From positions 203,319-267,318 of the forward strand of contig NZ_JANYMP010000009.1 in the NCBI RefSeq assembly GCF_025061645.1: DNA of 64,000 nucleotides. Direction: 5' to 3'. Below the pieces are notes generated by a model. The model saw only the letters and a program-made list of their open reading frames with translations, was not told the DNA's origin and did not search any database. A program made the position numbers and the translations under genes. Each line of letters opens with the position of its first letter. Position 1 is the first letter of the stretch. Positions 40,973 to 62,500 of this stretch are shown here, one piece after another. The stretch is from Umezawaea endophytica. GTDB lineage: Bacteria; Actinomycetota; Actinomycetes; Mycobacteriales; Pseudonocardiaceae.

Positions 40973-41005
40973 GCGCGGGTGCGGGCGTTCGCTGACGGGA
41001 TCCGG

Positions 41006-41617
41006 ATGCCGAGGCGCGTCGTCGTCGGCATGACCGGCGCCACCGGTGCCGCGATCGGCATCCGGATCCTGGAAACGCTCAGCGCCGTCGGGGTGGAGAC
41101 GCACCTGGTGCTGAGCAAGTGGGCACGCGCCACGATCGAGATGGAGACCGACTACACGGTCCGCCAGGTCCAATCCCTGGCGGACCACGTCTACGGGTCG
41201 CACGACCAGGCGGCGGCGATCTCCAGCGGTTCCTTCCGGACGGACGGGATGGTCGTGGCCCCGTGCAGCATGAAGACCCTGGCGGCGATCAGGGTCGGGT
41301 ACGGCGAGGGGCTGATCGCGCGCGCCGCGGACGTGACCCTCAAGGAGCACCGCAAGCTGGTGCTCGTGCCGAGGGAGACGCCGCTGAGCGAGATCCACCT
41401 GGAGAACATGTTGGGGCTGGCCAGGATGGGCGTCGTGATGCTGCCGCCCATGCCCGCGTTCTACAACCACCCCAAGGGTGTCCCGGACATCGTCGACCAC
41501 GTGACCAGTCGCGTGCTCGACCAGTTCGGTGTGGACAACGACCTCACGACGCGGTGGGACGGCGGGAAGTCTGCACGCCAGCACCGGAAGGACAACGGCG
41601 ATGAAGCACTTCACTGA
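41006..41617 (+). CDS. UbiX/Pad1-family flavin prenyltransferase
   Basis: A 203-aa flavoprotein that makes prenylated FMN, the cofactor of UbiD decarboxylases. Features: FMN loop VVVGMTGATGAAIGIRIL, FRTDGMVVAPCSMKTLAAIR, LKEHRKLVLVPRETPLSEIH and MPPMPAFYNHPKG-like LPPMPAFYNHPKGVPDIVDH. ATG 41006 matches the usual family start; GTG 40979 in frame is an alternative. It overlaps the UbiD gene by 17 nt. The pair resembles non-oxidative hydroxyarylic-acid decarboxylase (VdcB/VdcC) sets as well as generic UbiX/UbiD. Confidence 0.9.
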   Translation: MPRRVVVGMTGATGAAIGIRILETLSAVGVETHLVLSKWARATIEMETDYTVRQVQSLADHVYGSHDQAAAISSGSFRTDGMVVAPCSMKTLAAIRVGYGEGLIARAADVTLKEHRKLVLVPRETPLSEIHLENMLGLARMGVVMLPPMPAFYNHPKGVPDIVDHVTSRVLDQFGVDNDLTTRWDGGKSARQHRKDNGDEALH

Positions 41618-43251: not shown

Positions 43252-44943
43252 TCAGAACTCTGGCAGCTCCAAGGGGGCGATCTCGCTGAAGACGTCTCCG
43301 GGGCCGGGGTTGCCGCGATGAGTGCGGCCGCCGAGGTGGTGCAGGACGCCCCACACCGCGTTGAGCGCGGTGGTGACGGCTCCTTCGGCGAAGCCGCCGC
43401 ACCAGGAGATGTCGTCGCCCGCGAGGAACAGCCCGCGCTGGGCGTCGGTCAGGTCGTCCTGCATGAAGTGCGTGTAGAGCTTGCGCTGGTAGCGGTAGTG
43501 GCCGGGCAGGTTCGACTTGAACGCGCCCATGAAGTGCGGCTCGGTCTCCCAGGTGATGGTGACCGGGTCGCCGATGATGTGCGTGCGGATGTCCACGCCG
43601 GGGTAGATCTCGGCCAGCGAGCCGAGGACGACCTCCAGGCGCTCCTCCAGGGTGAGGGTGGCGAGCTTCAGCGAGTCGTCGTTCCACGTGTACGACAGGC
43701 ACATCACGCCGGGCTTGTCCGGGCCGTCGTCGAACAGGTAGACGCCGCGCGGCATCCGGTCGGTGAGCGTCATGCTCATGACGTGCCTGCCGGTGCTCGG
43801 GTCGACGTCGAGCCAGAACGGTCGGTCCGTCACCACGAACAGCTTCGACGAACCCATGTAGTGCGTGCGCTCCACCGCGGTCCACAGCGCCTGGGGGAGC
43901 AGCGACTCGTCGCACTTGACCTTGGTCAGCAGCGCCCAGCTCTGCGCGGTGAACACCGCGGCGGGGTAGGTGCGGATGCCGTGCTCGGCGTCCTCGACGG
44001 TGATGCCCTGCGCGGTCCGGCGCATCCACTTCACCGCGGTCTTCGGCACCCCGCCCGCGTGCAGCGACGCGAGCGTCGTGCCCTCCGGCCAGTGGTCGAG
44101 GAACTCCGGCTCGTGCGTCCACAGCCTCGTCGGGAGCTGCTGGCTCCCGCCGGTGATGCGCTGCTGGTCGACGTCGGCCCCGTTGTAGACGACGCGCAGG
44201 ATCTCCAGCATGGAGTTGGGGAAGTCGGTGTCCCAGCCGCCCGTGCCGAAGCCGACCTGGCCGAAGATCTCGCGGTGCTGGAACGAGGCGAACGCGGGCG
44301 ACGCGGTGAGGAAGCCGTAGAACGACACGTCGTCGAGGCGCGGGACCAGGCGGTTCCAGATGGCCTTGATGGTCTCGACGTCACGTCGGCGGACGGCGTC
44401 CTCCATGGCGGACAGCTCCGCGGTCTCCTGGAGCGCCTTGTCCCACGCGTCGGCCACCTGCTGGTAGATCACCGGCAGCTCGGCCATCGTGTGGGCGAAG
44501 TGGCTCACGCCCTTGAGGTCGACGACCGTGCTGGGTGTGTTGGTGGACAACGGGTTCGGGAACGGCGTGGTCTTCAGGCCGACCTTGTCGATGTAGTGGA
44601 ACAGCGTGGTTGCCGCGACGGGGAAGCGCATGGCGCCCATCTCCGCGACCGACTCCGGGTGCTCCCGGAACGGGACCGACCGCATCCGGCCGCCGAGCTG
44701 CTCGGCCTCGTACAGCACCGGTCGCAGCCCGAGCTTCATCAGCTCGTAGGCCGTGACCAGGCCCGCGATGCCGCCGCCGATGACGGCGACCTCGGTGCCG
44801 TGCGCCGACGCGGGCACCGAGCCGAGGCCCGCCGGGTGGCGCAGCCACTCGTCGTAGGCGAACGGGAAGTCCGGGCCGAACATCGTGACCGGGGCACGCA
44901 GGCCGTTCAGGTCGTCGTGGTCGATCGGGCTGGTGTGGTCCAT
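43252..44943 (-). CDS. FAD-dependent amino-acid monooxygenase/oxidase (tryptophan/arginine 2-monooxygenase type)
   Basis: A 563-aa flavin amine oxidase family enzyme. The FAD dinucleotide fold is EVAVIGGGIAGLVTAYELMK (51-70), with a GGRMRS Arg finger, EMGAMRFPV, and C-terminal FAD contacts LFLAGDDISWCGGFAEGAV. Length and the N-terminal FAYDEWLRHPAGLGSVP segment fit bacterial L-amino-acid 2-monooxygenases (IaaM-like), which oxidatively decarboxylate an amino acid to an amide, better than 450-aa L-amino-acid oxidases. It is 59 nt downstream of a nitrilase-family amidase in the same operon, exactly the enzyme needed next. Next to a PKS with a bare loading ACP, an arginine-to-4-guanidinobutyramide role is attractive but unproven; Trp or Phe are alternatives. 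Confidence 0.85.
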   Translation of the reverse strand: MDHTSPIDHDDLNGLRAPVTMFGPDFPFAYDEWLRHPAGLGSVPASAHGTEVAVIGGGIAGLVTAYELMKLGLRPVLYEAEQLGGRMRSVPFREHPESVAEMGAMRFPVAATTLFHYIDKVGLKTTPFPNPLSTNTPSTVVDLKGVSHFAHTMAELPVIYQQVADAWDKALQETAELSAMEDAVRRRDVETIKAIWNRLVPRLDDVSFYGFLTASPAFASFQHREIFGQVGFGTGGWDTDFPNSMLEILRVVYNGADVDQQRITGGSQQLPTRLWTHEPEFLDHWPEGTTLASLHAGGVPKTAVKWMRRTAQGITVEDAEHGIRTYPAAVFTAQSWALLTKVKCDESLLPQALWTAVERTHYMGSSKLFVVTDRPFWLDVDPSTGRHVMSMTLTDRMPRGVYLFDDGPDKPGVMCLSYTWNDDSLKLATLTLEERLEVVLGSLAEIYPGVDIRTHIIGDPVTITWETEPHFMGAFKSNLPGHYRYQRKLYTHFMQDDLTDAQRGLFLAGDDISWCGGFAEGAVTTALNAVWGVLHHLGGRTHRGNPGPGDVFSEIAPLELPEF

Positions 44944-45002
44944 GTGCGCTACCCCCGTGTGACGGTGGTGACCCGCCGTCCGGCGGGCGTGGCGGAAGGG
45001 GG

Positions 45003-45776
45003 TCAGGGGAAGAGCTCGGGACGTCGGTCCGCCAAGTAGTCGTTGACCTGCTTGGCCTTCGTGATCCGGGTGGCGTCCAGGTCCGCCACGACGAGCTGTT
45101 CGCCGTGGACGTCCTCGTGCAGCGCGTGGCCGGACGGGCCCACCACGCGGGTGAGACCGCAGTACTCCAGTTCGCGCTCGGAGCCTGCCCAGTTCACGTA
45201 GGCGATGTAGAGCTGGCTCTCCAGCGCCCGCGAGTGGACGAGCGTCCTGGCCACGATGTCCCACGGCTTCATCAGCGCCGTCGGGACGACCAGCAACTGG
45301 GTGCCCGCCACCGCGTGGGCCCGCACCGATTCCGGGAACTCGACGTCGTAGCAGATGAGCATCCCGACGGTGAAGCCGTCGAGCTCGGCCTGGACGACCC
45401 CGACGTCACCGGGGCGGAAGATCGCCCGGTCGATGTCGCCGAACAGGTGCGTCTTGCGGTAGGTGGCCAGGGCGTTCCCGCCGCCGTCGACCAGGCGGAC
45501 CGTGTTGTAGACGTTGCCGCCGTCGGCCTCGGGCCAGCCGAAGACGATGGCCACGCCGGTCTCGGCCGCGATGGCCGCCGCCTCGTCGCACATCGGGCCG
45601 TCGTCGGGTTCGGCCAGGTCACGGAGTCGCCGCGGGCCGAGGTGGTAGCCGGTGAGGGAGATCTCGGGTGTGATCAGCAACTGGGCACCGGCTTCGGCGG
45701 CGTTCCGCGCCGCGGCTCTGAGCCGCGTCCGCGGCGGCTCTCCGCCCGCGACGGTCTGCCAGCAAGCGATCCTCAT
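45003..45776 (-). CDS. Carbon-nitrogen hydrolase (nitrilase superfamily amidase)
   Basis: A 257-aa amidase with the complete nitrilase-superfamily Glu-Lys-Cys triad: E38 (LLITPEISLTGY), K108 (ATYRKTHLFGD) and C142 (MLICYDVEFPES). The compact length fits aliphatic or omega-amidases rather than nitrilases. It is the first gene of the minus-strand operon with the amino-acid monooxygenase, so it probably hydrolyses the amide made by that enzyme to a free acid plus ammonia. In marginolactone clusters the equivalent step gives 4-guanidinobutyrate; that specific assignment is inference. Confidence 0.88.
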   Translation of the reverse strand: MRIACWQTVAGGEPPRTRLRAAARNAAEAGAQLLITPEISLTGYHLGPRRLRDLAEPDDGPMCDEAAAIAAETGVAIVFGWPEADGGNVYNTVRLVDGGGNALATYRKTHLFGDIDRAIFRPGDVGVVQAELDGFTVGMLICYDVEFPESVRAHAVAGTQLLVVPTALMKPWDIVARTLVHSRALESQLYIAYVNWAGSERELEYCGLTRVVGPSGHALHEDVHGEQLVVADLDATRITKAKQVNDYLADRRPELFP

Positions 45777-46519
45777 GCTCGTGGGTCCTTACTCCGCCGG
45801 TCGTTCTCCTTCGGCGGGGTTGTGGAGGCGCCCGGTTTTGACCGGAGTGATAACGTCATTATGAAACGGCATTATTGTTCGATTCGCAGAAACACGGAGT
45901 GCACCGAAGCTATGTAGTGCACTTGTGGCGCGGCAACCCCTGTCGTGCCCCTGTGCGCCCCTAGGGGGCTTGAGGCCCCTTATCTGGACTGGTAGCAATG
46001 TCCTCGCAGGTAAGGAGCCAGCGTTGATGTTTTGCCAGGCTAAACAAGTTCGGTGGTCCAGGAAGTTGCGCCGGATGTGCGAAAGGGCAGTAATCATTGC
46101 CCCCGTCTCAACTGGGCGTGCCCTGGTGAGAGCGATTCATGAATAACTTACAGGTTTTGTGTGGCGCCTGACCTGCGGTTTCAGAGTTGGCGAGGGTGTT
46201 TGATCGTCGATGCGAGTCGATCGCAACCCTACGGAAGTAGGGTCTTATGGATCGGTGTATTCATACAATTCTCACGATGGCGCGCGGATGTTGTGGGATG
46301 TAGTGCGCGAACTCGGTAACACCCGTGTTGCGCATGGTCCGGGTTACTCAACGGTTTCCCGAGACGTTATCGACAAGCTTCTAATTGTCCTGATACTGTC
46401 GTTGTGTGTTACCAGGACAGCCTGGTGGGACAACCCGACTTGAGTTGGCCACTGTTTGTTCACCGCGGGTACGTATGGGCGGGACAGGTGACCACACCGG
46501 GAAAGGAACGCGGTCTTAG
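45777..46519. promoter_or_regulatory. Long divergent intergenic region with A/T-rich DNA between amidase and LAL regulator
   Basis: 743 bp without a credible gene. It is clearly less G/C-rich than the roughly 70 percent flanks (around 50 percent by eye at 46200-46440). It contains the palindrome CCCCTAGGGG (45958-45967), a nearby GGCCCCTTATC, and the dyad ACCAGG-ACAG-CCTGGT (46411-46426). Such A/T-rich promoters are typical Lsr2 targets. It drives the oxidase/amidase operon leftward and the regulator rightward. Confidence 0.6.
46370..46397 (+). promoter_or_regulatory. Candidate promoter of the LAL regulator
   Basis: TCGACA (46370-46375), a 16-nt spacer, then GATACT (46392-46397). This is close to TTGACA/TATAAT-type promoters, with the ACCAGG/CCTGGT dyad just downstream of the predicted start site. 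Confidence 0.4.
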
Positions 46520-49321
46520 ATGTTGGTCGAACGGACTAGAGAACTGGCCACCCTCCAGCACGTGCTGGAGGACTGCCTCCGAGGCCGGTCCGGCGTGGCC
46601 ATGATCACCGGTGCCAGAGCCACCGGGAAGACCGCGCTGCTCCACGCCTTCGGGGAAGAGGTGCAGCGTTCCGGCGCCCTGCTCCTCAACGCCACCTGCA
46701 CCACGGGAGAGCGCTCCCTGCCACTGGGCGTGCTCAGCCAACTCCAGCGCAACATCCCCCTCGAATTCTGCTCGGGCGACCGGGCGGCGTACCTGGAGGG
46801 GCTGCTGGACGAGGCTTCGAGTCCTCTGAGGACCGCCGAGGGCGGGGTGGACGGCGCGGAGACCAAGCGCGGGCACGTGCTGCACCAGCTCGGCGCGGCG
46901 CTGCTGAACATCGCCGAGCAGCGGCCGATCGTCATCGTCGTGGACGACGTCCAGAACATGGACGACCTCTCCAAGGAGACCCTGCGGCACGTGCTCGGCA
47001 GGCTCCGCTCGGCGAGCGTCGCGGTGGTGTTCACCGAGTGCGTCGGTTCCCGCGAACCGCGCTCGCTGTTCCACACCGAGTTCCTCCGCCACCCGCACTG
47101 CCACAGCATCCGGCTCACGCTCCTCTCGGCCGCGGGCGTCGGCGAGATGGTCGCCTCCGAACTGGACCCGCGCATCGCGGAGGCGTTCGGAGCGCAGTAC
47201 TACGAGGTGACCGGCGGCAACCCGCTGCTCGTGCGCGCGCTGCTCGAAGACCAGCAGCGCCTGCGCCACGGCGACGGCGCGCCCGCGGAACCCGTTGTGG
47301 GCGAAGGGTTCGCCGAGGCGGTCATGAGCTGCCTGCACCGCGGCGACCCCGCCATCCGCGAAGCCGCCTACGCGCTCGCCGTCCTCGGCGGCGACTCGGA
47401 CCGGCCGAAGCTGTTCGGCCGCATGATGGAGCGCTGCCCCAAGACCGCGGCCAAGGACGTCGAGAGCCTCGTCGTGATGGGCCTGCTGCGCGGCGACACC
47501 TACCGCCACCCCGCCATCCGCGAAGCCGTCATCGACGACGCGCTCGCCAACGCCGACCTGCCCGACCTGCACCTGCGGGCCGCGTGGCTGCTCGCCCAGG
47601 ACGGCGCCGAGCCGCGCGTGGTCGCGAACCACCTCGTCGCCGCGGGCACCGCGTGCCCCGAGTGGGCGCTGCCGCTGCTGCGCGAAGCCGCCGAGTCGGC
47701 CCTGCTCGACGACCAGGTCGAGGAAGCCGTCGAGTACCTCGAACTGGCCATCCAGGACCGCGAGGAGGAGACGCCCATCGAGCTGGTCATGATGCTCGTG
47801 CGCCTCAAGCTCCGCCTCAGCCCCGCGTCCGCGCTCCAGCACGTCCCGACGCTCGGCGAGGCGATGCGCGAGGGCAAGCTCCTCGGCCGCGGCCTCCTCT
47901 GGTTCGTCCGCTTCCTCGTCGTGCACGGCCGCGTCGACGACGTCACCGAAGGCCTCGCGCGGCTGGTCGCCCGCATGGACGAGCTGGACGAGCACAGCAA
48001 GGCCGAGATCAAGATCACCCGCATGTGGGCGGCCGGTTCCTACCCCGAACTGGTCAGCAACCTCCCGCCGGTCCAGCAGGACACCGACCAGGTCTCGGTC
48101 GACATGGGCATGCGCGTCCAGGCGGCCACCGTGCTCACGCGCGTCATCGGCGGCGACTTCGACGACAGCGCCGTGATGACCGCGGAACGCGTGCTGCAGA
48201 GCGTGAACCTCATCGAGGAGCCGACCGAGGAGGTCAGCGCCGCCCTGCGGACCCTGCTGTACCTGGAGAAGCTCGACAGCGTGAAGTCCTGGTGCGACAC
48301 GCTGATGACCAGCAGGCACGAGTCCTCCAGCCCTCCCGGCTGGCTGGGTGAACTGGCCATGATCCGCGCCGAGGTCGCGCTGCGCATGGGCGACCTGGGC
48401 ACCGCGCGCCAGCACGCCAGGTTCGCCCTGGAGAAGGTCGACCCGCGCACGTGGGGCGCCAGCGCGGGCATGGTGCTCGGCACGCTGCTCCAGGCCACCA
48501 CCGCCATGGGCAAGTTCGACGAGGCGGCGGAAGCCCTGGCGCAGCGCGTTCCGCAGCACATCTACCGCGGCCGGTACGGCCTGCACTACCTGTACGCGAA
48601 GGGCCAGCACCACCTGGCCACCCGCCAACTCCCGGCAGCGCTCGGCGACTTCCTGTCCTGCGGCGAACTCATGGTCAAGTGGAAGCTGGACTCGCCGGGG
48701 TTGTTGCCCTGGAGGACCGGCGCGGCCGAGGTCTACCTGCGGCTGGGGAACCAGGCGAAGGCCCGTGAACTGGTCGACCAGCAGTTGGCGCTTCCCGTCA
48801 TGGGGCCGTCGTTGTCGCGTGGGATGGCCATGCGGGTGAAGGCGGCGACTCTGGACCTGCGGCAGCGCTCGCAGCTCCTGCACGGCGCGCTGGACGAGGT
48901 CCAGGCCGCTGGCGGGCAGTTGGAGGTGGCTCGGGTGCTGGCCGATCTCAGTCACACACATCACCAGTTGGGGGAGCCGGATCGGGCTCGGATGATGGTT
49001 CGGAGGGCTTGGAGGGTGGCGAAGGACTGCCAGGCGGAGCCGTTGTGCGCGCAGTTGATCCCTGATCAGAGTCGGGGGAGTGCCACGTCTACTACGTCGG
49101 AGTCCGCGGCTGAGTGTGGGGCGGCTACGTTGTCGGATGCGGAGCGTCGGGTTGCTGGGTTGGCGGCGCTTGGGCATACGAATCGGGAGATCGCCAACAA
49201 GCTGTATGTGACGATTAGTACTGTTGAGCAGCATTTGACCAAGGCTTATCGGAAGTTGAATGTTACTCAGCGGAAGGATCTGCCTGCGGATCTTTGGAGT
49301 GACGCGGCTTCTATCGCCTGA
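46520..49321 (+). CDS. LAL-type (large ATP-binding) LuxR family transcriptional regulator
   Basis: A 933-aa regulator. The N-terminal AAA/STAND ATPase has Walker A GARATGKT (31-38) and Walker B region IVIVVDDVQNMDD. A long alpha-helical TPR-like middle follows. The C-terminal LuxR HTH is LSDAERRVAGLAALGHTNRE, then IANKLYVTISTVEQHLTKAYRKLNV. LAL proteins are pathway-specific activators of macrolide and other PKS clusters (PikD/GdmR type). AAAGGA lies about 14 nt from the ATG. It is encoded between the putative starter-unit genes and the PKS. Codons in the last about 120 residues shift to T/G third positions, unlike the rest of the gene. Confidence 0.93.
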   Translation: MLVERTRELATLQHVLEDCLRGRSGVAMITGARATGKTALLHAFGEEVQRSGALLLNATCTTGERSLPLGVLSQLQRNIPLEFCSGDRAAYLEGLLDEASSPLRTAEGGVDGAETKRGHVLHQLGAALLNIAEQRPIVIVVDDVQNMDDLSKETLRHVLGRLRSASVAVVFTECVGSREPRSLFHTEFLRHPHCHSIRLTLLSAAGVGEMVASELDPRIAEAFGAQYYEVTGGNPLLVRALLEDQQRLRHGDGAPAEPVVGEGFAEAVMSCLHRGDPAIREAAYALAVLGGDSDRPKLFGRMMERCPKTAAKDVESLVVMGLLRGDTYRHPAIREAVIDDALANADLPDLHLRAAWLLAQDGAEPRVVANHLVAAGTACPEWALPLLREAAESALLDDQVEEAVEYLELAIQDREEETPIELVMMLVRLKLRLSPASALQHVPTLGEAMREGKLLGRGLLWFVRFLVVHGRVDDVTEGLARLVARMDELDEHSKAEIKITRMWAAGSYPELVSNLPPVQQDTDQVSVDMGMRVQAATVLTRVIGGDFDDSAVMTAERVLQSVNLIEEPTEEVSAALRTLLYLEKLDSVKSWCDTLMTSRHESSSPPGWLGELAMIRAEVALRMGDLGTARQHARFALEKVDPRTWGASAGMVLGTLLQATTAMGKFDEAAEALAQRVPQHIYRGRYGLHYLYAKGQHHLATRQLPAALGDFLSCGELMVKWKLDSPGLLPWRTGAAEVYLRLGNQAKARELVDQQLALPVMGPSLSRGMAMRVKAATLDLRQRSQLLHGALDEVQAAGGQLEVARVLADLSHTHHQLGEPDRARMMVRRAWRVAKDCQAEPLCAQLIPDQSRGSATSTTSESAAECGAATLSDAERRVAGLAALGHTNREIANKLYVTISTVEQHLTKAYRKLNVTQRKDLPADLWSDAASIA

Positions 49322-49322
49322 T

Positions 49323-49410
49323 CCCCGGATCCGCGCGGCTTGGCCGCGCGAATCCGGGGACGGGTGGGTGGATGGGTGGGTTTCCCCTTGGCTTGGGCCA
49401 AGGGGTTTTT
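49323..49410 (+). terminator. Tandem terminators after the LAL gene
   Basis: The first hairpin, 49323-49339 with 49343-49359, is a 17-bp stem with one mismatch immediately after the stop codon. The second is a canonical intrinsic terminator: CCCCTTGGC (49384-49392) pairs with GCCAAGGGG (49397-49405), followed by TTTTT (49406-49410). Confidence 0.9.
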
Positions 49411-49873
49411 GGTGTTTGGTCTTTGATCTTTGTTGCCCGCCGGTTACGGAGCGGGACGCCGTCTACGCATCGGCCACATCGCCGATGGGACTTCGGTACG
49501 GAACCTGCCTGCGCTGGGAGATGGAAACCCAGCTTGCGGCCGTCGTGGCCCACGGGTACGCCTGAGGTGGTGCTCCCCCGACACCCCGCTTCCGAGATTA
49601 TCTCGATGCCGCGTTTTCTTTGTCAAGGCGGGAAAGATGCCTTGACAAAGAAAACGCGGCACGACGTGCGAGAAGAAGCGGGCCGCCGGGGGAGGTGGGG
49701 TTTGATTTGATTGCGTGCGGAAGGTCTCGGGGCGAAGCGGCGCGGGTTGCATTACGGGCCGGGTTTCGTGGGGGGACCGGTCTCGTAGGGCCAGGTTGAG
49801 CGGGTGAGATGGGTGGGACTGGTGCGTAGGGCCAGGTTGATGGGGCTGGGTCGGGTGGTGTTGCTTTATACGG
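49411..49873. other. Gene-free region between LAL terminator and the next terminator
   Basis: Apart from the hairpin element copy C, only a degenerate repeat around GTAGGGCCAGGTTGA (49785-49799 and 49826-49840) is visible. No coding region is supported. Confidence 0.5.
49608..49660. repeat. Dispersed hairpin element, copy C
   Basis: A perfect 22-bp stem (49608-49629 with 49639-49660) with the loop GGGAAAGAT identical to copy B at 18794. Left flank ATTATCTCGATGC and right flank CACGACG are also shared, as is the outer C-rich/G-rich context (CACCCCGCT upstream, GGGGGAGGTGGGG downstream). The outer stem differs from copies A and B by compensated substitutions. Confidence 0.9.
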
Positions 49874-49922
49874 CCGAATGCCCTGTCTGCGGTGCCGCGC
49901 AGACAGGGCATTCGGGGTTTTT
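49874..49922. terminator. 18-bp stem terminator with T-tract
   Basis: 49874-49891 pairs perfectly with 49898-49915 (6-nt loop), followed by GGTTTTT. It stands 12 nt beyond the stop of the convergent small gene at 49934 and can work in both directions. Confidence 0.88.
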
Positions 49923-49933
49923 CTTGGTAGGTG

Positions 49934-50221
49934 TCAGCCGGTTTGGCGGCGGTAGCCGCCTACGCCTTCGTCGTCTGCTCCTTGCCAGAGTTCTGGGTTG
50001 TACGGTGCGTCTGGGATCATCACCACGTCTGCCAGCGTTTGTGTGCGGCGGGGGCGGGAGGTGTTTCCGTGTAGTTCGGTGATGTCGATGTCCAGGCGTT
50101 CCACGTCGTTCAGCAGCCTGCGTACGTCTGGTACGTCGCCGAAGTGGAAGCGCAGGGACGCTACTTTGCGGCGGAGTACGGTGACGATGCGCTGTACATC
50201 GGTGATCTCACTGTTCGGCAC
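49934..50221 (-). CDS. Small conserved-looking hypothetical protein divergent from the PKS
   Basis: A 95-aa protein with a GTG start and an excellent SD (AGGAGG, 7 nt upstream), so clearly expressed. Residues 1-50 are a charged helix (VQRIVTVLRRKVASLRFHFG, then VRRLLNDVERLDIDITEL), followed by a short loop and a C-terminal motif VMIPDAPYNPELWQGADDEG ending in YRRQTG. No signal peptide or catalytic motif. I do not recognise a named family. It is divergently transcribed from the PKS across a 298-bp gap with symmetrical TAGGGG repeats, so co-regulation with the cluster is likely. Possible roles are accessory or regulatory. Confidence 0.75.
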   Translation of the reverse strand: MPNSEITDVQRIVTVLRRKVASLRFHFGDVPDVRRLLNDVERLDIDITELHGNTSRPRRTQTLADVVMIPDAPYNPELWQGADDEGVGGYRRQTG

Positions 50222-50519
50222 GGTGTACCTCCTGATGGCGCAAAGGCTGGTTCGACTGTGTCCTCCGGAATGCTCACCCTAGGCAGGTGTGATCTGGACG
50301 ACAACCCCTAATCCTGCCCCTACGTGGCTGTCGAGGCTGCGGAACTCGTTGGGCTGCCTCGGATCGGGTTCTCGAAGAGTAGACCGAGGAGTTTTGGTGA
50401 TGGCAATAGTCGGCTGGAACGCAAGGGGCTGTTAGGGGGACGGTAGGGGTTTCTGCCTTCTGCTGCTGGGGAAACGATGAGCAACGGTCGCACATTCTGT
50501 CTGCGGATTGTGGAGCGTT
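50222..50519. promoter_or_regulatory. Divergent promoter region of the PKS and small gene, with paired TAGGGG repeats
   Basis: CCCCTA occurs at 50305-50310 and 50317-50322 (12-bp period). In the other orientation TAGGGG occurs at 50433-50438 and 50444-50449 (11-bp period). One-helical-turn direct repeats, once facing each divergent gene, are the layout expected for an activator bound as tandem protomers (SARP or LuxR type). The PKS SD GGAG is 5 nt before its ATG. Confidence 0.6.
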
Positions 50520-53500
50520 ATGTTGAACGAGTCCGAGCACATCACGTCCGCCACGTCCACCAGCGTTGACGGGGCGGAGCAGCCTTCGTCCTGGCAGCTT
50601 CTCGTCCAGGCGCCTGAAGCCGAGCAAGAGCGGCTGCTGGTGGAACTGGTGGGGCGGGCTGCCGCGGCTGTGCTGCGGCGCGCGCCCGGTGAGGTGGTTG
50701 CGGCTGAGCGGCCGTTCCTCGAGCTCGGATTCGATTCCATCGCCGCTGTCGACCTGCACGCGAAGCTGACCGAGGCGACGGGGTTGCACCTGCCGATCAC
50801 GTTGGTGTTCGACTACCCGACGCCAGCGGCGGTGGCGCGGTACCTGCGGGCGGAAGCGCTCGGGTTGTCGGCGGCGCCGATCCTGCCGCCCAGCGCCAAC
50901 ACGGCGTCGGACGAGCCGATCGCGATCGTGGCCATGGCGTGCCGGTTCCCCGGTGGGGTGTCGTCGCCGGAGGAGTTGTGGCGGTTCATCGCCGATGGTG
51001 GTGACGCGATCAGCGGGTTGCCGACCAACCGCGGGTGGGACCTGGACGCGTTGTACGACCCGGACCCGGAGCACCAGGGGACGACGTACACCCGTGAAGG
51101 TGGGTTCCTGCACGACGCGGACCAGTTCGACCCGACGTTCTTCGGGATCTCGCCGCGGGAAGCGGTCGCGATGGACCCGCAGCAGCGCCTGCTCCTCGAG
51201 ACGTCGTGGGAGGTGCTGGAGCGCGCGGGGATCGATCCCGGCACGTTGCGCGGCAGTTCGACGGCCGTCTACGTGGGTGCTGAGCAGCAGGAGTACGGGC
51301 CGCGGTTGGCCGAGGCGCAAGGGCATGAAGGGTCGTTGCTGACCGGGAACACGGCCAGTGTGGCGTCGGGGCGGATCTCGTACACGTTGGGGCTCGAAGG
51401 TCCGGCGGTCACGGTGGACACGGCGTGTTCGGCTTCGCTGGTGGCGTTGCACCTGGCGGTGCAGACGCTGCGGAGCGGTGAGTCGTCGCTGGCGTTCGCC
51501 GGTGGTGCCGCCGTGATGGCCAGCCCCGGTTCGCTGGTGGCGTTCAGCCGTCAGCGCGGGCTGTCACCCGACGGCCGCTGCAAGGCGTTCTCCTCCACCG
51601 CCGACGGGACCGGGTGGTCCGAGGGTGTCGGCATGGTGCTGCTGGAGCGGCTGTCCGACGCCGTGCGCAACGGGCACCCGGTGCTCGCGCTGGTGCGCGG
51701 CTCGGCGATCAACCAGGACGGCGCGTCGAACGGGCTGACCGCGCCGAACGGGCCCGCGCAGCAGCGGGTCATCCACCAGGCGCTGGTCGACGCGGAGCTG
51801 ACCACGGCGGACGTCGACGTGGTCGAGGCGCACGGCACCGGCACGGTGCTCGGCGACCCGATCGAGGCGCAGGCCATCCTGGCCACCTACGGCCAGAACC
51901 GCGAGACGCCCCTGCTGCTGGGGTCCCTCAAGTCCAACCTGGGCCACACGCAGGCCGCGGCCGGTGTCGCGGGCGTCATCAAGATGGTCATGGCGCTGCG
52001 CAACGGACTGCTGCCGCGGACCCTGCACGTCGATCGTCCGTCCCCTCACGTTGACTGGTCATCCGGATCGCTCGAGCTGCTCACCGAGGCGAAGCCGTGG
52101 CCCGCGTCCGAGCGCCCGCGCCGGGCGGGCGTGTCCGCCTTCGGCATCAGCGGCACCAACGCGCACACGATCATCGAGGAGTACACCGGCGAGGCCGTGG
52201 AGGTGCCGGAGCCCGCCCGTGTCGCGAGCGTGCTGCCGTGGGTGCTGTCGGCCAAGACCGCCGAGGCGCTCGGTGATCAGGCGCGGCACCTGGTGGCGCA
52301 CCTGGACGAGCGGCCCGAACTGTCCGAAGTGGACCTCGGGCACTCGCTGGCGACCTCCCGCGTCGCCTTCGACCACCGCGCGGTCGTGCTCGGCTCGTCG
52401 CGCGAAGCCTTCCGGCAGGCGCTCACGGCGCTGGCCGACGGCACGTCCTCGCCCGCCGTGATCAGCGGCGCCGCCACGGGCGGCAAGCTCGCGTTCCTGT
52501 TCACCGGGCAGGGGGCGCAGCGGCTCGACATGGGGCGTGAGCTGCACCGGGAGTTCCCGGTGTTCGCGGCGGCGTTCGACGACGCCTGTCGCCACCTCGA
52601 CGTGCACCTGGACCAGCCGCTGCGCACGGTCGTGTTCGGCGACGACCCCGACCTGCTGGACCGCACCGAGTACACGCAGCCCGCGCTGTTCGCCGTCGAG
52701 GTCGCGCTGTTCCGCACGCTGGAGGCGTGGGGCGTGCGCCAGGACTACCTGGCGGGCCACTCCGTCGGCGAGATCGCCGCCGCGCACGTCGCGGGGGTGC
52801 TGTCGCTGGACGACGCGTGCGCGCTGGTCGCCGCTCGTGGCCGGATGATGCAGGCGCTCCCCGGCGGTGGCGCGATGGTGGCGTTGCAGGCGTCCGAGGA
52901 CGAGGTGCTGCCGCTGCTGGACGAGGACGTCTCGCTGGCGGCGGTCAACGGGCCCATGGCCGTCGTCGTCGCCGGTGAAGAGGACGCCGTCGCGCGGGTC
53001 GTGGCGAACTTCCCGGACCGCAAGTCCAAGCGCCTCGCGGTGTCGCACGCGTTCCACTCGCCGTTGATGGACGCGATGCTCGAGGAGTTCACCTGGATCA
53101 CCGAGGTCCTGAAGTACCGGCCGCCGCGCCTGCCGATCGTCTCCACGGTCACCGGCAGGCTCGTGTCGGCCGAGGAGCTGTGCTCGCCGGAGTACTGGGT
53201 GCGACACGTCCGCGAGGCCGTGCGGTTCGCCGACGCCGTGGACACCCTGGTGGGACTGGGCGTGACGACGTTCGTGGAGCTCGGCCCCGACGCCGTGCTC
53301 ACCGCGATGGCCGCCGAGACCGCGCCGGACGCCGTCCTGGTCCCGACCGTCCGCAAGGGCCGTGCCGAGACCGACGGGCTGCTGCGGGCCGTCGGCAGGC
53401 TGCACGCCGGAGGTGTCCGCGTCGACTGGGGCCCGGTGTTCGCCGGGACCGGCGCGCGCCGCGTCGACCTGCCGACGTACGCGTTCCAGCGCGAGGGTTT

Positions 53501-56500
53501 CTGGCTGACCGGCGGGTCCTCGCCCGCCGCCGTCGACCGGCACGAAGCCGACTTCTGGGCCGCGGTCGACCGCGGTGACCTCGACTCCCTGGCCTCGGCG
53601 TTGTCACTCGACGACTCCGGGGCTCTCGCCGATCTGCTGCCCGCGCTGGCGAAGTGGCGGCGTGGTCGGGCGGACGCGTCCACAGTGGACGCCTGGCGCT
53701 ACAAGACCTCCTGGACCCGGTTGCCCGAGGGTGGCGGCCGGGCCACCGGGCGGTGGCTGCTCGTGTCCGCCGACGACGTCGCGGGGCTCGTCGAGCGCGG
53801 GCTGGACGTCGTGCGGATCGACCCGTCCACCGACCGCGCCGCGCTGGCGGAAACGCTGGCGGGTGCCGGATCCCTCGACGGTGTGCTGTCGCTGAGCGCC
53901 GACGTGGTCGAGACCGTCGTGCTGGTGCAGGCGCTGGGTGACGCGGGTGTCGCCGCGCCGCTGTGGTGCGCGACCCGCGGCGCGGTGTCGGCCGGTCGGG
54001 ACGACGCCGTGGACCCGGCGCTCACCCAGGTCTGGGGCGTCGGCAAGGTCGTCGCCCTGGAGCACCCCGAACGCTGGGGCGGTCTGGTCGACCTGCCCGC
54101 CGACGTGGACGACCGCGTGCTGGACCGGCTCGTCGCGGTACTCGGCGGCACGGAGGACCAGGTCGCGATCCGCGGGTCCCGCGTGTTCGGCCGCAGGCTG
54201 GCGCAGGCGCCCGCGAAGACCGGCGTCGGCGACTGGACGCCGCGCGGCACCGTGCTGGTGACCGGTGGCACGGGCGCGCTCGGCACGCAGGTCGCCCGCT
54301 GGCTGGCGAGCGCTGGCGCGGAGCGGCTGGTGTTGACGTCCCGTCGTGGTCTGGACGCGCCGGGTGCTGTCGATCTGGTGGAGGAACTGGACATCCCCGT
54401 GGTGGTGGCCGCGTGTGACGTGGCCGATCGGGAGGCGCTCAAGGCGTTGCTGGAGGAATACCCGCCGGACGCCGTGGTGCACGCGGCGGGCGTCGACTCG
54501 CTGGTGGCGCTGGACGTGCAGGACGTCGCCGAGTTCCGCCAGGTCGTCGCCGCCAAGGCGGCCGGTGCGGCGAACCTGGACGAGCTGGTCGGCGAGGTCG
54601 ACGCGTTCGTGCTGTTCTCCTCCATCGCGAGCACCTGGGGCAGCGGCGGGCAGGCCGCGTACGGCGCGGCGAACGCCTACCTGGACGGGCTGGCCGAATC
54701 GCGCCGGGCGCGTGGGCTGACCGCGCTGTCGGTCGCGTGGGGCGCCTGGGCGGGTGCGGGCATGGCGACCGTCGAGGACGTCGAGGAGCACCTGCGGCTG
54801 CGCGGTGTTCGGGCGATGGCGCCCGAGCTGGCGCTGTCCGCTCTGCGCCAGGCCATCGCGCTCGACGAGGGCCTGGTGACCGTCGCCGACGTCGACTGGT
54901 CGCGGTTCGTCCCCATCTTCACGTCCGAGCGCCTGAGCCCGCTGCTGTCCGACCTGCCGCAGGCCCGTGACGCGGTCGTGGGCGTTGCGCCGAGCGACGC
55001 GGCCACCGGTCTCACGGCCAGGCTGACCGGCCTGGCCGAGCCGGAGCAGCGGCACCTGGTGCTGGACCTCGTCCGCACGCACGCCGCCACCGTCCTCGGC
55101 CACTCGTCGGGCGGCGCGATCGAGCCGAGCAAGGCGTTCAAGGAACTGGGTTTCGACTCGCTGACCGCCGTGGAGTTCCGCGGTGTGATCGCGGCCGAGA
55201 CCGGGCTCGCGCTGCCCGCGACGCTGGTGTTCGACTACCCGACGCCCGTCGCGCTCGCCGAGCACCTGCGCGCCGAACTGGTCGGCTCGCGACCGGCGGC
55301 ACTGGCCGCCGCGGCGAACGCGATCCCGGTGGACGAGCCGATCGCCATCGTGGCGATGGCGTGCCGCTTCCCCGGCGGGGTCGTGACGCCGGAGCAGTTG
55401 TGGGACGTGGTGTTCGACGGCGTCGACACGGTCGGCGACTTCCCGACCGATCGGGGCTGGGACCTCGCGGGCCTGTACGACCCGGACCCCGACGCGCCGG
55501 GCAAGTCCTACGCCCGCGAGGGCGCGTTCCTCTACGGCGCGGGGGAGTTCGACCCGGCGTTCTTCGGGATCTCACCGCGTGAAGCGCTGGCGATGGACCC
55601 GCAGCAGCGGTTGCTGCTGGAGACGTCGTGGGAGGTGTTCGAACGCGCGGGCATCGACCCGGACTCGCTGCGCGGCGGGCAGGTCGGCGTCTTCGCGGGC
55701 AGCAACGGGCAGGACTACGGCACGCAGCTCAGTTCGCTGCCCGCCGAGATCGAGGGCTACTTCGGCACCGGCAACGCGGCCAGCGTCGCGTCCGGCCGCA
55801 TCTCCTACACGTTCGGCTTCGAGGGTCCGGCCGTCACGGTCGACACCGCGTGCTCGTCGTCGTTGGTGGCGCTGCACCTGGCGGTGCAGGCGCTGCGGTC
55901 CGGTGAGTGCTCGCTGGCGCTGGCGGGTGGTGTGACGATCATGTCGACGCCCGCCGCGTTCGTGGACTTCTCCCGCCAGCGCGGCCTCGCGGTCGACGGG
56001 CGCTGCAAGGCGTTCGCGGCGGGCGCCGACGGCACGGCCTGGGGCGAGGGCGTCGGCATGCTCCTGGTGGAGCGGCTGTCGGACGCCCAGCGCAACGGCC
56101 ACCAGGTCCTCGCCGTGGTCAAGGGTTCCGCGATCAACCAGGACGGCGCGTCGAACGGGCTCACCGCCCCGAACGGCCCGTCGCAGCAGCGGGTGATCCG
56201 CAAGGCGCTGGCGAACGCCGGTCTGTCCACTTCGGACGTCGACGTGGTCGAGGCGCACGGCACCGGTACGGCGCTGGGCGACCCGATCGAGGCGCAGGCG
56301 CTGCTCGCGACCTACGGTCAGGACCGGGGAACGCCGCTGCTGCTGGGTTCCGTCAAGACCAACATCGGCCACACCCAGGCCGCCGCCGGTGTCGCCGCCG
56401 TGATCAAGGTGGTCATGGCGATGCGGCACGGTGTCGTGCCCAAGACGCTGCACGTCGACGCGCCCTCGCCGCAGGTGGACTGGGCGGCCGGGGCGATCGA

Positions 56501-59500
56501 CCTGGTCACCGAGCGGGTCGAGTGGCCCGAGGTGGATCGACCGCGCCGAGCGGGCGTGTCGTCGTTCGGGTTCAGCGGCACCAACGCCCACGCGATCCTC
56601 GAACAGGCGCCGGTCGTCGTGGAGCGGCCGACGGCACGGACCACGCCCGCGGTTGTTCCGGTCGTGCTGTCCGCGAAGTCCCCGGAAGCGTTGCGGGCCC
56701 AGGCCTCCGCGCTGCTGGAGGCGGACGCGGACCTGACCGACCTCGGTTTCTCCCTGGCCACCGGCCGATCGCGGCTCGCGCACCGCGCCGTGCTCGCGGT
56801 GTCCGACCACGACGAACTGCGCCGCCAGGTGACCGCCGTCGAGTCCACCGAGGTCGTGGGTGGGCGGGTCGCGTTCCTGTTCACCGGCCAGGGGTCGCAG
56901 CGGGCCGGGATGGGGCGCGGGCTCTACGACGCGTTCCCGGTGTTCGCGGACGCGTTCGACGCCGTGGCGGGGCTGGTGGAGGTTCGGCACGACTCGTTGG
57001 ATCGCACGGAGTTCGCGCAGCCGGCGTTGTTCGCGCTGGAAGTGGCGTTGTACCGGCTGGTGGAGTCGTGGGGTGTCCGTCCGGACTTCCTGGCCGGGCA
57101 CTCGATCGGCGAGATCGCCGCGGCCCACGTGGCCGGTGTGCTGTCCCTCGACGACGCCGCCACGCTGATCAGCGCTCGCGGCCGGTTGATGCAGGCGCTG
57201 CCCGAGGGTGGCGCGATGGTGGCGGTGCAGGCGACGGAAGTCGAAGTGCTGCCCCACCTGACGGACCTGGTGTCGATCGCGGCGGTCAACGGGCCTTCGT
57301 CCGTGGTGATCGCCGGTGATGAGGCTGAGGTCGAGCGTGTGCTCAGCGAGTTCGCGGATCGGAAGTCCAAGCGGCTCGCCGTTTCGCACGCGTTCCACTC
57401 GCCGTTGATGGACCCGATGCTGGACGAGTTCCGTGCGGTGGTCTCCAAGCTCACCTTCTCCGAACCGAAGATCCCGATGTTGGGTGAGGTGACGGACCCG
57501 GAGTACTGGGTGCGACACGTGCGCGACGCGGTTCGGTTCGCCGACACGGTCACGACTTTGGAGGCCAAGGGCGTCACGACGTTCTTGGAGTTGGGCCCGG
57601 ATGGTGTGCTGACCGCGATGGGCGCGGAGAGTGTCACCGAGGCCGTGCTGATCGCCGGGCAGCGCAAGGATCGCGACGAGGCCAAGACCCTGGTCCAAGC
57701 TGTCGGTGCGGCTCACAGCCGTGGTGTCGAGGTGGACTGGGCGGCCTACTTCGCCGGGACGGGCGCGCGGCGGGTCGACCTGCCGACGTACCGGTTCCAG
57801 CGTGAACGCTTCTGGCTCGACGGGGTTGGCGCGGTCGGTGACGTGACGTCGGCGGGGCTCGGCTCGGCCGGGCACCCGCTGCTCGGCGCCGTGCTGCGCA
57901 CCCCCGACGGCGGAGTGCTGGGCACGGCCCGGCTGTCCGTCGCCACGCACGCCTGGCTGGGTGACCACGTCGTGGCCGGTGCGGTCGTCGTGCCGGGCAC
58001 CGCGCTGCTCGAACTGGCCATCCGCGCCGGTGATGAGGTCGGCTGCGGGCACGTGGACGAACTCCTGCTCCAAGCGCCGCTGATCCTGCCCGAGGGTGGT
58101 GCGGTCAACGTCCACCTCGTGCTCGACCCGGCCGACGCCTCCGGCCGCCGTGGCGTCACGGTGTCCGCGCAGCCGGACGGCGGCGAGTGGACCACGCACG
58201 CCGTCGGCGTCCTCACCGAAGCCGCGCAGGCGCCTGACTTCGACCTCACGACCTGGCCGCCCGCGGCCGAAGCGGTGGAGATCGGCTCCACGTACGAGGA
58301 CCTGGCCCGCGCCGGACTCGCCTACGGGCCGGTGTTCCAGGGCCTCAAGGCGGCCTGGCGCGACGGCGAGACCGTCTACGTCGAGGCCGAGTTGCCCGAG
58401 TCGGAGCACCGCGGAGCCGCCGAGTTCGGCGTGCACCCGGCCCTGCTCGACTCGGTGCTGCACGGCATCGGCGTCGGCGGCGCGCAGTCCGCGTCGCTGC
58501 CGTTCTCCTGGACGGGCGTGACCCTGTTCGCGGCGGGCGCTTCGGTGCTGCGGGCCCGGATCAGCGGTCGTGGTGACGCGGTGTCGGTCGAGATCGCCGA
58601 CGGGGCGGGAAGTCCTGTCGCCCAGGTCGGTTCGCTGGCGCTGCGGCCGATCGCCGCCGACCGGTTCGCCGCGGGCACCGATTCGCTGTTCCGCGTCGAC
58701 TGGGTGCCAGCTCCGACGGCAGCCGAGTCCACTGTGGACGACGCCACCGTGCTGGTCGTGCCGGACGGCGCGCTCCGCGACGTCACCGGCCACGTGCTGG
58801 TGGAGATCCAGTCGTTCCTCGCCTCCGGCGACGGCACGCTCGTGCTGGTGACCGGTGAAACCCCCGGCCAGGCCGGTGTCCCCGGTCTGGTGCGGTCCGC
58901 CCAGCAGGAGCACCCCGACCGGATCGTGCTGGTCTACGCCGGTTCCTGCGCCGAGATCCACGCCGCGCTCCCGTCGGTCCTGGCGACCGGCGAACCCGAG
59001 GTGGCCCTCCGCGACGGTCAGGCCCTCGTGCCCCGACTGGCGCGCGCGACCGCCGACGCCGACCCGATCGCGCTCGACGGCACCGTGCTGATCACCGGCG
59101 GCACCGGTGGGCTCGGCGCCGCGCTGGCCAGGCACCTCGTCGCCGAACACGGTGTGCGGCACCTGGTCCTGACCTCCCGTCGTGGTCCCGACGCGCCGGG
59201 CGCGGCCGAACTGGTCGCGGAGCTGGATGCGCGGGTCGACGTGATCGCCTGCGACGTGTCCGACCGCGCGGCCGTGGAAGCGCTGCTGGCGGGCATCCCC
59301 GACCTGACGGGTGTCGTGCACACGGCCGGTGTCCTGGACGACGGCATCCTGGAATCCCTGACCCCGCAACGCCTGGACGCGGTGTTCGCGCCGAAGGTCG
59401 ACGCCGCCTGGCACCTGCACGACCTGACCCGCGACCTGACGCTGTTCGCCCTGTTCTCCTCCATCTCCGGTGTCCTCGGCTCGCCGGGCCAGGCCAACTA

Positions 59501-62500
59501 CGCCGCCGCCAACACCGCGCTGGACGCGCTGGCCACCCACCGGCACTCCCTCGGCCTCCCGGCGGTGTCGCTGGCCTGGGGCCTGTGGGACCAGCACTCC
59601 GGCATGGGCTCGACGCTGTCCGACGCCGACCTGGCCCGCATCGCGCGCTCCGGCCTGCCCGCGCTGGGCATCGCCGAAGGCATGGAGCTGTTCGACCGCG
59701 GTCTCCGCGCGGGCACACCGGTCGTCGTGCCCGCGAAGCTCGACCTCCCGGCGCTGAAGGCGACCGGCGAGGTGCAGCACGCGTTGCGCGGGCTGGTCCG
59801 GATCCCGCGTCGGCGCGTCGCCGCCGGCGCGTCCGGTGCCGCCGCCGCGCCGTGGGTCGCCCGACTGGCGGGCCTCTCCGCCACCGACCAGGAGCGGCTG
59901 CTGGTCGACCTGGTGCGCGAGAAGGTCGCGACCGTCCTCGGCTTCGGTTCGGCCGACGAGATCAGCCCCGGTCGCGGCCTCGTCGAACTCGGCCTCGACT
60001 CGTTGTCCGCCGTCGAACTGCGCAACGCGCTCAGCGCCGCCACCGGTCTGCGGCTGCCCGCGACGCTGGTGTTCGACTACCCGACCGCCACCGCGCTCGG
60101 CGCCCACCTGCGGACCGAGCTGGTCGGTGACGACGAGGTCGCGGAGGAGTTCACCGCCGCCTCGGTCGGCACCGACGAGCCGATCGCGATCGTCGGCATG
60201 GCCTGCCGCTTCCCCGGCGGCGTGCGGTCGCCGGAGGACCTGTGGCGACTGGTCGACAGCGGCACCGACGCCATCTCCTGGTTCCCGACCAACCGCGGCT
60301 GGGACGTCGAGGGCCTGTACGACCCGGACCCGGACGCCGTTGGCAAGACCTACACCCGTGAAGGCGGGTTCCTGCACGAGGCGGGCGACTTCGACCCCGC
60401 GCTGTTCGGGATCTCCCCGCGCGAAGCCCTCGCGATGGACCCCCAGCAGCGCCAGTTGCTGGAGACGTCGTGGGAGGCCGTCGAGCACGCGGGCATCGAC
60501 ATCGCCTCGCTGCGCGGCAGCCGGACCGGTGTGTTCGCGGGCCTGATGTACCACGACTACGCCACCGGTCTCACCGAGATCCCGGAGGAGGTCAGCGGGT
60601 ACGTCGGCACCGGCACGTCCGGCAGCGTCCTGTCCGGCCGCGTGTCCTACACGTTCGGCTTCGAGGGCCCGGCCGTCACGGTCGACACCGCGTGCTCGTC
60701 GTCGTTGGTGGCGCTGCACCTGGCGGTGCAGGCGCTGCGGTCCGGTGAGTGCTCGCTGGCACTGGCCGGTGGCGCCACGGTGATGGCGACGCCGGAGACG
60801 TTCGTCGACTTCTCCCGCCAGCGCGGGCTGTCCGCCGACGGCCGTTCCAAGGCGTTCTCCGCCGACGCGGACGGCGTCGGCTGGGCCGAGGGCGTCGGTG
60901 TGCTGCTCGTCGAGCGGCTGTCCGACGCGCGGCGCAACGGCCACGAGGTCCTGGCCGTCGTGCGGGGCTCTGCGGTCAACCAGGACGGCGCGTCCAGCAC
61001 GCTCACCGCGCCGAACGGGCCGTCGCAGCAGCGGGTCATCAAGCAGGCGCTCGCCAACGCCGGTCTGTCCACAACGGACATCGACGTCGTCGAGGCGCAC
61101 GGCACCGGGACCAGGCTGGGCGACCCGATCGAGGCGCAGGCGGTGCTGGCCACCTACGGCCAGGACCGCGACCGGCCCGTGCTGATGGGCGCGTTGAAGT
61201 CGAACGTCGGCCACACGCAGGCCGCGGCGGGCGTCGGCGGGGTCATCAAGATGGTCGAGGCCATCCGCCGCGGCATCGCGCCGAAGACGTTGCACGCCGT
61301 CGAGCCCTCCCCGCACGTGGACTGGGCCGCCGGGTCGGTGGAGTTGTTGACCGAGGCGAAGCCGTGGCCGGAGACCGGGCGCCCGCGCCGGGCCGCGGTG
61401 TCCGCGTTCGGCATCGGCGGCACCAACGCGCACACGATCATCGAGCAGGCGCCGGAAGCCTCCGCGCCGGAGGTCGGACGTCGGCCGCTCGCCGCGGTGC
61501 CGGTGGTGCTGTCGGGCAAGACGGCCGCCGCCGTGCGGGCGCAGGCCGACCGGCTCCTCGCCGCGCTCGACCCGATGGTCGAGGTGGCCGATCTCGGCTT
61601 CTCGTCCGTGACGACGAGGACCGCCCTCGACCACCGCGCCGTGGTGGTCGCCACCGACCACGACGACCTGCGCAAGGGGCTGGAAGGCCTGACGACCGGG
61701 TCCGTCGTCGGTGGACGGTTGGCGTTCCTGTTCACCGGTCAGGGTTCGCAGCGGGCCGGGATGGGTCGGGAGTTGTACGGGACGTTCCCGGTGTTCGCGA
61801 AGGCGTTCGACGCCGTGGCGGCGCTGGTGGAGGTGCGGCACGATTCGTTGGATCGCACGGAGTTCGCGCAGCCCGCCCTGTTCGCGCTGGAAGTGGCGTT
61901 GTACCGGTTGGTGGAGTCGTGGGGTGTGCGGCCGGACTTCCTGGCAGGCCACTCGATCGGCGAGATCGCCGCGGCTCACGTGGCCGGGGTGTTGTCCCTA
62001 GAAGACGCGGCGACGCTGGTCGGTGAGCGTGGTCGGTTGATGCAGGCGCTGCCCGAGGGTGGCGCGATGGTGGCGGTTCAGGCGACCGAGGACGAGGTCA
62101 CGCCGCACTTGACCGACCTGGTGTCGATCGCCGCGATCAACGGGCCCGACTCGATTGTCATCGCTGGTGACGAGAACGCCGTGGACGGGGTGTTGACGCA
62201 CTTCGCGGACCGGAAGACCAAGCGGCTCGCCGTGTCGCACGCGTTCCACTCGCCGTTGATGGACCCGATGCTGGACGAGTTCCGCGCGGTGGTCTCGACG
62301 CTGACCTTCAACGAGCCGAAGATCCCGATGTTGGGTGAGGTGACGGACCCGGAGTACTGGGTGCGGCACGTGCGCGACGCGGTCCGGTTCGCGGACGCGG
62401 TCACGACTTTGGAAGCCAAGGGCGTCACGACGTTCCTGGAGCTGGGCCCGGACGGTGTGCTGACCGCGATGGGCCAGGACTCGGTTCGTGAAGCCGTTCT

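Follow-up and report, generated by a model that had tools for sequence, protein, structure and literature searches.

The 64,000-nucleotide stretch of the Umezawaea endophytica genome analysed here (the window, part of contig C9 of genome G000) carries the start of a modular polyketide synthase (PKS) gene cluster which, judged by its genes, their motifs, their kinship and their linkage in relatives, very likely belongs to the arginoketides, with the amino-marginolactones as its probable type. An earlier note on this DNA had announced a new PKS. A new member it is, but the class itself is known and the 4-guanidinobutyryl priming route has been published (PMC5082578, PMC4737276, PMC10322714 and PMC8944477; papers are cited by PMC number, for those parts of their text that were available). 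What would be new is a series of lines differing by single modules, with a seemingly shorter line in the window strain. Literature searches, with supplements and subscription papers outside their reach, tied no published product to this cluster.

In the pathway that we infer, from its substrate and the sequence of reactions to ring closure and the final product, the oxidase would decarboxylate and oxygenate L-arginine to 4-guanidinobutyramide, the amidase would hydrolyse the amide to 4-guanidinobutyrate, and a coenzyme A (CoA) ligase would activate the acid. A VinK-type discrete acyltransferase (AT) would then load the 4-guanidinobutyryl primer on the bare acyl carrier protein (ACP) of the first PKS. 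Seven PKS genes with 23 modules would build a polyol chain, and the seven final modules, each with a dehydratase (DH) and a ketoreductase (KR), are predicted to give a conjugated heptaenoyl thioester. A terminal thioesterase (TE) would release the chain, probably as a macrolactone, and the amidinohydrolase would strip the guanidino protection late, exposing an amine. A sugar may also be attached by a glycosyltransferase.

The two starter-unit genes within the window encode the putative arginine monooxygenase and the putative 4-guanidinobutyramide hydrolase (Table 1). Among solved structures the oxidase scores best with 3we0 (755 bits), an L-amino acid oxidase/monooxygenase, and far lower with the Trp 2-monooxygenase 4iv9 (228 bits); its identity to the Pseudomonas Lys/Orn/Arg enzyme is 57% over the aligned part. 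The label IaaM-like given earlier was thus too loose as to kin. The amidase matches the nitrilase family, and E37, K108 and C142 occupy the places of the intact E-K-C triad that had been read in it. Both genes lie on the minus strand, and since the amidase stops 59 bases ahead of the oxidase start they likely form one operon, beside a LAL regulator gene as had been described. No NCBIfam equivalog scored above its cut-off for either protein.

Relatives of the oxidase were taken as the best 80 of 589 confirmed stretches in a named collection, that is, the near part of the family, and a locus was labelled cluster-linked when a ligase above 500 bits, a VinK-type AT or a ketosynthase (KS) lay within the fetched flanks. 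By this label 23 of the 80 loci are linked and 57 alone, with a ligase at 21, an AT at 21, both at 20 and a KS at 12. In a quick tree with midpoint root, in which the window row sits on a long end branch, the window oxidase falls into a 26-row group (SH-aLRT 99) together with all 23 cluster-linked loci and two loci labelled alone that have a LAL-like gene nearby (L019 and L032), separate from the 55 other alone rows. The earlier note had named a place among oxidases of unrelated catabolism as contrary evidence; the window row groups with cluster-linked loci and not with the lone, probably catabolic ones. The group takes in Streptantibioticus rubrisoli (L021) and Streptomyces malaysiensis subsp. 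samsunensis (L039), the latter a different strain of the species of the azalomycin/clethramycin producer DSM4137.

Of the 57 loci whose fetched flanks show neither ligase nor AT nor KS, 55 have an amidase with the oxidase, as would be expected if the two enzymes served arginine (or lysine) catabolism and only happened to stand next to the PKS. We regard this explanation as scarcely credible: the oxidase has its nearer homologues among the cluster-linked loci and not among the lone ones, and the amidase is closer to those of six of the seven cluster-linked loci (304-365 bits) than to the 55 lone-locus amidases (223-276 bits), the seventh, L018, scoring 258. Place 516 of the oxidase is Phe in the window, in 23/23 cluster-linked loci and in 2/57 others, the remaining 55 having Trp, and congeners share the gene order, as does G212, a genome from another genus of the family.

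The active site also bears on the substrate. In the solved enzyme Asp238 binds the basic side chain of Lys, Orn or Arg, and TMO and PAO have Val and Leu at this place and Phe at that of Trp235 (PMC5832979). The window oxidase keeps both Asp and Trp, unlike the IaaM/TMO aromatic-pocket pattern; the Asp238 equivalent, and likewise Arg102, Trp235, Tyr416, Trp418 and Phe473, are kept in the window and in all 80 relatives. Ala replaces Cys254 in the window oxidase and in 79 relatives, and the one remaining relative has Thr. A basic amino acid is well supported as the substrate by these residues. The earlier proposal of an amino-acid-derived primer accordingly holds in its 4-guanidinobutyrate form, which is favoured, while the aryl-acetate form from Trp or Phe is disfavoured, the Asp for a basic side chain being kept.

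The CoA ligase, stand-alone AT and agmatinase-like amidinohydrolase that had been expected beyond position 64000 are all present in the genome, as a run of genes on contig C42. With the Allokutzneria proteins as queries, the genome yields a single strong hit for each of the two: 665 bits for the CoA ligase (runner-up 137) and 330 bits for the discrete AT (runner-up 45). Their genes adjoin each other about 0.5 kb short of the right-hand end of C42, and the proteins are 63% (ligase) and 51% (AT) identical to the Allokutzneria set, which directly precedes a bare-ACP PKS. The AT is of the VinK type by its PF21124 match and by 334 bits to 5czc; we take the structures 5czc and 5czd to be VinK. The ligase and AT are followed by a ureohydrolase-family gene, a glycosyltransferase gene and, further on, an MMPL-family gene. 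The ureohydrolase (P0005), one of five PF00491 matches in the genome, carries LGGDH, DAHPD and SLDIDVLDPAYAP, which fit the motifs xGGDH, DAHxD and SxDxDxxDPxxxP given for DstH/PriH (PMC4737276), a likeness read from the published motifs.

In G031, a congener whose genome is a single contig, the oxidase, amidase, LAL regulator, PKS, TE, type II TE, ligase, AT, amidinohydrolase, glycosyltransferase and MMPL genes all lie within about 133 kb, so that ligase and discrete AT, whose absence from the cluster would have told against the proposal, are contiguous with the PKS there. Identities to the window strain are 94.7% for the oxidase, 93.8% for the amidase, 95% for the loading ACP, 92.6% for the ligase, 96% for the AT and 92% for the amidinohydrolase, the compared parts being 86-96% identical overall and the first PKS protein 82-85%. 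The same core set is found in two pieces in a second congener (G069), and also in G212, where the stretch searched gave no MMPL match. Since the C42 genes belong with this PKS in relatives, we strongly infer that they are part of the same cluster in the window strain. An amidinohydrolase match at E up to 1e-70 was found in 11 of 297 genomes of the family, the strain's own included, and at 1e-20 in 7 of the 10 genomes reached through PKS- or ligase-linked loci. The genome of Kitasatospora mediocidica (L022) gave no amidinohydrolase match at 1e-20 and was not assumed to be that of the mediomycin producer.

The first PKS protein opens, as had been read from the window, with an ACP directly ahead of the first KS (profile match at residues 36-112) and with no AT or KSQ before it; this ACP is 95-96% identical in the two congeners and 71% in G212. 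The gene begins at 50508 or 50520, and its open frame of 7755 residues exceeds the 7746 residues read from the first start by just 9 codons at the upstream end. Because of this and because the first AT on the contig in a genome-wide AT scan is that of module 1, a loading AT ahead of the ACP, an in-frame upstream one having been named earlier as contrary evidence, was looked for and not found.

Contig C9 extends to position 163837 in window-continued coordinates and holds seven PKS genes with a loading ACP and 23 extension modules, as delimited by profiles built from these sequences themselves. The reductive domains, with ER for enoylreductase, are KR, DH-KR, KR, DH-KR, KR in gene 1; DH-ER-KR, KR, KR in gene 2; five times KR in gene 3; DH-ER-KR in gene 4; DH-KR, KR, DH-KR, DH-KR in gene 5; three times DH-KR in gene 6; and two times DH-KR in gene 7, with the last seven modules consecutively DH-KR. 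About 290 C-terminal residues of the last protein are read from their position and a GHSSGG motif as a putative terminal TE, and a separate 253-residue product with a GHSxG motif as a candidate type II TE. Modules 15 and 22 have the AT motif YASH and the other 21 have HAFH, which we take to denote methylmalonyl and malonyl, respectively; the AT of module 22 has GSSQG instead of GHSxG. All 23 KS domains have a complete Cys-His-His set, and all 12 DH domains retain the first His and the Asp, three of them with HxxxD instead of HxxxG. The predicted chain is C4 plus 23 two-carbon units, made by a line with seven consecutive DH-KR modules at its end. Instead of Lys-Ser-Tyr-Asn, the KR residues are Lys-Ser-Tyr-Ser in modules 8, 9, 11 and 13 and Arg-Ser-Tyr-Asp in modules 10 and 12; the G031 counterparts of modules 8-13 carry identical residue sets, and no KR was found in the G212 counterpart of module 12. 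With the Lys and Asn lost from their KRs and the KR not found at the module 12 place of G212, modules 10 and 12 probably leave ketones at fixed places of the polyol.

Whether the product is a ring or a linear chain was judged mainly from the amidinohydrolase. A polyene end requires DH-KR modules such as the seven that close this line, and giant linear polyenes use the same priming route (PMC5704753, PMC8944477), which would suit release as a linear acid of the clethramycin/mediomycin/tetrafibricin type. This outcome is doubtful, though it deserves to be taken seriously. In S. rubrisoli, a species with a published linear aminopolyol (PMC9421130), the agmatinase-like gene close to the oxidase shares only about 40% identity with the window-strain amidinohydrolase. 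Identities are higher for genes from the L047 and L089 genomes (69%), from G101, G155, G291, G136 and G192 (56-61%), and for two more (49-52%); the G136 gene adjoins a PKS thioesterase. A desertomycin amidinohydrolase, moreover, was without effect on linear clethramycins, as described in PMC5704753. This kinship and the clethramycin result together lend moderate support to a macrolactone rather than a linear product.

Several observations weigh against the assignment of the cluster as a whole. The oxidase shares with TMO and PAO a Gly at the Ala515 place, a change tied in those enzymes to a wider pocket, and its solved Lys/Orn/Arg relative turns over Lys and Orn more efficiently than Arg (both PMC5832979); Gly also stands at this place in all 80 relatives, and the oxidase residues alone do not separate Arg from Lys or Orn. 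The run of ligase, AT and amidinohydrolase sits on a separate contig in G000, the ends of C9 and C42 share no overlap, and the linkage is taken from relatives. Two Allokutzneria genomes (G001 and G002) in which oxidase, ligase and AT are present gave no amidinohydrolase match at 1e-20, so this enzyme is not universal to the route. Finally, the macrolactone is argued from the kinship of the amidinohydrolase and from a TE recognised by position and motif only.

Arg would be the oxidase substrate rather than Lys because the amidinohydrolase is present and the genes are kin to arginoketide clusters. A lysine-primed version, with oxidase and amidase acting like DavB and DavA, which convert lysine to 5-aminovalerate, and with 5-aminovalerate as the starter, would suit the nearest solved oxidase being the Pseudomonas Lys/Orn/Arg enzyme, with which the Asp for the basic side chain is shared. 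We hold it to be very unlikely, since a predicted guanidine-removing amidinohydrolase, needless for a Lys-derived chain, is in the gene run of four genomes (G000, G031, G069 and G212), and since a free gamma-aminobutanoyl starter has been argued to cyclise (PMC4737276).

The arginine-primed assignment can be set against the described members of the class. The parts that mark an arginoketide cluster are here a putative arginine monooxygenase (by homology, tree group and active-site residues), a putative 4-guanidinobutyramide hydrolase (by homology, the E-K-C triad and its nearest, cluster-linked homologues), a putative 4-guanidinobutanoate:CoA ligase (by homology) and a predicted dedicated discrete AT with a bare loading ACP; the part that marks an amino-marginolactone, an in-cluster amidinohydrolase with the three motifs, adjoins the ligase and AT. 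The other mark of that type is a product with a macrolactone ring of at least 31 atoms. The desertomycin (dst) and primycin (pri) clusters resemble the present one in that they prime with arginine-derived 4-guanidinobutanoyl and hold an amidinohydrolase bearing the same motifs (PMC4737276), but primycin is described as a 36-membered non-polyene lactone (PMC7522111), whereas the 23 modules here end in seven DH-KR. Azalomycin F and kanchanamycin have in common with the present cluster a bare loading ACP, a dedicated acyltransferase, a hydrolase and a CoA ligase, but their line has 19 modules and an iterative first module with DH and ER, whereas module 1 here has neither, and the transplanted azl cluster is described as lacking the oxidase that here sits with the PKS (PMC5082578). 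The linear arginoketides clethramycin, mediomycin and neotetrafibricin have the same priming unit, with amidinohydrolysis in mediomycin and a guanidine removal proposed for neotetrafibricin; they are made by 27 modules in nine PKS proteins, in contrast to 23 modules in seven proteins here (PMC5704753, PMC9421130). A predicted polyene cluster of Amycolatopsis saalfeldensis resembles the present one in oxidase, CoA ligase and azalomycin-like loading ACP, but it is predicted to give a pentaene, its product was reported as not detected and its guanidine removal was left undecided in that account (PMC8944477), whereas here a heptaene is predicted and an amidinohydrolase is present.

The number of modules read differs among the orthologous clusters. 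The first PKS gene has five extension modules in the window strain as assembled and six in G031, G069 and G212, and the totals are 23 in the window strain, 24 in G031 and 25 in G212. In a comparison by 100-residue steps, window module 2 resembles G031 module 2 more than G031 module 3 over its first 400 residues (89-97% against 82-93%) and G031 module 3 more in all later steps, with the changeover near 56.5 kb. The parsimonious reading of this pattern is that one KR module was deleted, leaving a KS of mixed ancestry. The fuller proposal, of an ortholog series differing by single modules (25 in the other genus, 24 in the congener, 23 in the window strain), with one KR module lost by recombination in or just after the KS and with a de-amidinated heptaene marginolactone that we did not find in print as the product, stands at even chances in our judgement. 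The genome is a draft of 65 contigs and all three relatives have six modules in this gene, which would also suit a collapse of a 24-module line in assembly. Such a collapse seems to us unlikely: in the three relatives, exact DNA matches between KS-AT regions two and three reach at most 44, 50 and 86 bases, the window's first PKS gene holds no exact 101-base repeat, and a small PKS contig (C58), tried as the missing module, was rejected at about 50% identity. If the KS of mixed ancestry, which seems intact, is active, the loss would make the chain two carbons shorter. Orthologues with 23, 24 and 25 modules would offer a natural test of the loss or gain of single modules, and whether a hybrid KS accepts its chain is relevant to PKS engineering.

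The cluster extends arginine-primed giant polyketides, a class of antifungals, to a rare actinomycete from a lineage of the Pseudonocardiaceae close to Allokutzneria, and it gives a nearly complete inventory of parts with which the product could be made detectable. The closeness to Allokutzneria is read from a partial 16S sequence, 96.2% identical over 1087 aligned columns in a comparison with seven named genomes that included no named Kutzneria.

Table 1. Features of the window and their positions (position 1 is the first base of the window; positions beyond 64000 continue the same count along the contig)
Feature	Position	Strand	Match or remark
FAD amino-acid monooxygenase, predicted arginine monooxygenase (L-Arg to 4-guanidinobutyramide)	43252..44943	-	PF01593 8.2e-47
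Nitrilase-family amidase, predicted 4-guanidinobutyramide hydrolase	45003..45776	-	PF00795 1.7e-40
LAL-type regulator (AAA plus LuxR helix-turn-helix)	46520..49321	+	PF13191 (AAA_16), PF00196 (GerE)
Small open reading frame, 95 amino acids	49934..50221	-	between LAL gene and PKS
First PKS gene, bare loading ACP and 5 extension modules	50520..64000, on to 73748	+	
Bare loading ACP (GFDSI), without AT or KSQ ahead	50613..50843	+	PF00550 1.1e-12
Extension module 1, KS-AT-KR-ACP	50895..55319	+	AT motif HAFH
Extension module 2, KS-AT-DH-KR-ACP	55320..60152	+	
Extension module 3, KS-AT-KR-ACP	60153..64000	+	runs past window end
Hairpin repeat copy	18651-18681	-	
Hairpin repeat copy	18805-18835	+	
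Hairpin repeat copy	49619-49649	+	
Rfam ASpks match	51864-51932	-	above gathering score; antisense to PKS coding sequence
Rfam ASpks match	56289-56357	-	above gathering score; antisense to PKS coding sequence
Rfam ASpks match	61131-61199	-	above gathering score; antisense to PKS coding sequence

Between the regulator and PKS genes, where other open frames are present, the 95-residue frame is the only one with coding-like codon use. It recurs at the same place in the two congeners (85% in G031, locus L153; 88% in G069, locus L180), and a counterpart at another oxidase/PKS locus (L047) is 32% identical. On the lower-coordinate side of the oxidase, a UbiX/UbiD pair (40979-43061, plus strand) adjoins a DrrA-like ABC transporter and is kept in two congeners; in NCBIfam the pair comes nearest to the models of the bagremycin/ferroverdin decarboxylases BagM/FevK and BagN/FevL, without reaching their cut-offs. 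The conservation of these UbiD/UbiX and ABC genes (38.9-43.1 kb) in congeners does not decide their membership, because flanks such as recQ and rluA are likewise kept in G031. Elsewhere in the genome, the AT scan found further large modular PKS genes on contigs C29 and C33, each contig with stand-alone AMP-binding genes. In Rhodococcus rhodnii (Nocardiaceae), locus L018 combines oxidase, amidase, LAL and ligase genes with an AT-bearing open reading frame, and no VinK-type AT was found within its flanks.

An Rfam scan of the window returned nothing beyond the three ASpks matches, which are probably conserved coding DNA and not RNA genes, and thus no match at the window's hairpin copies. These copies belong to an interspersed hairpin repeat with the invariant core TTGTCAAGGC GGGAAAGAT GCCTTGACAA, which also occurs at the C9 end and at no fewer than 40 places genome-wide. 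In 24/24 copies inspected the stem extends by 13-16 further pairs, with arms that vary between copies yet stay complementary, and the repeat may be a REP-like mobile hairpin.

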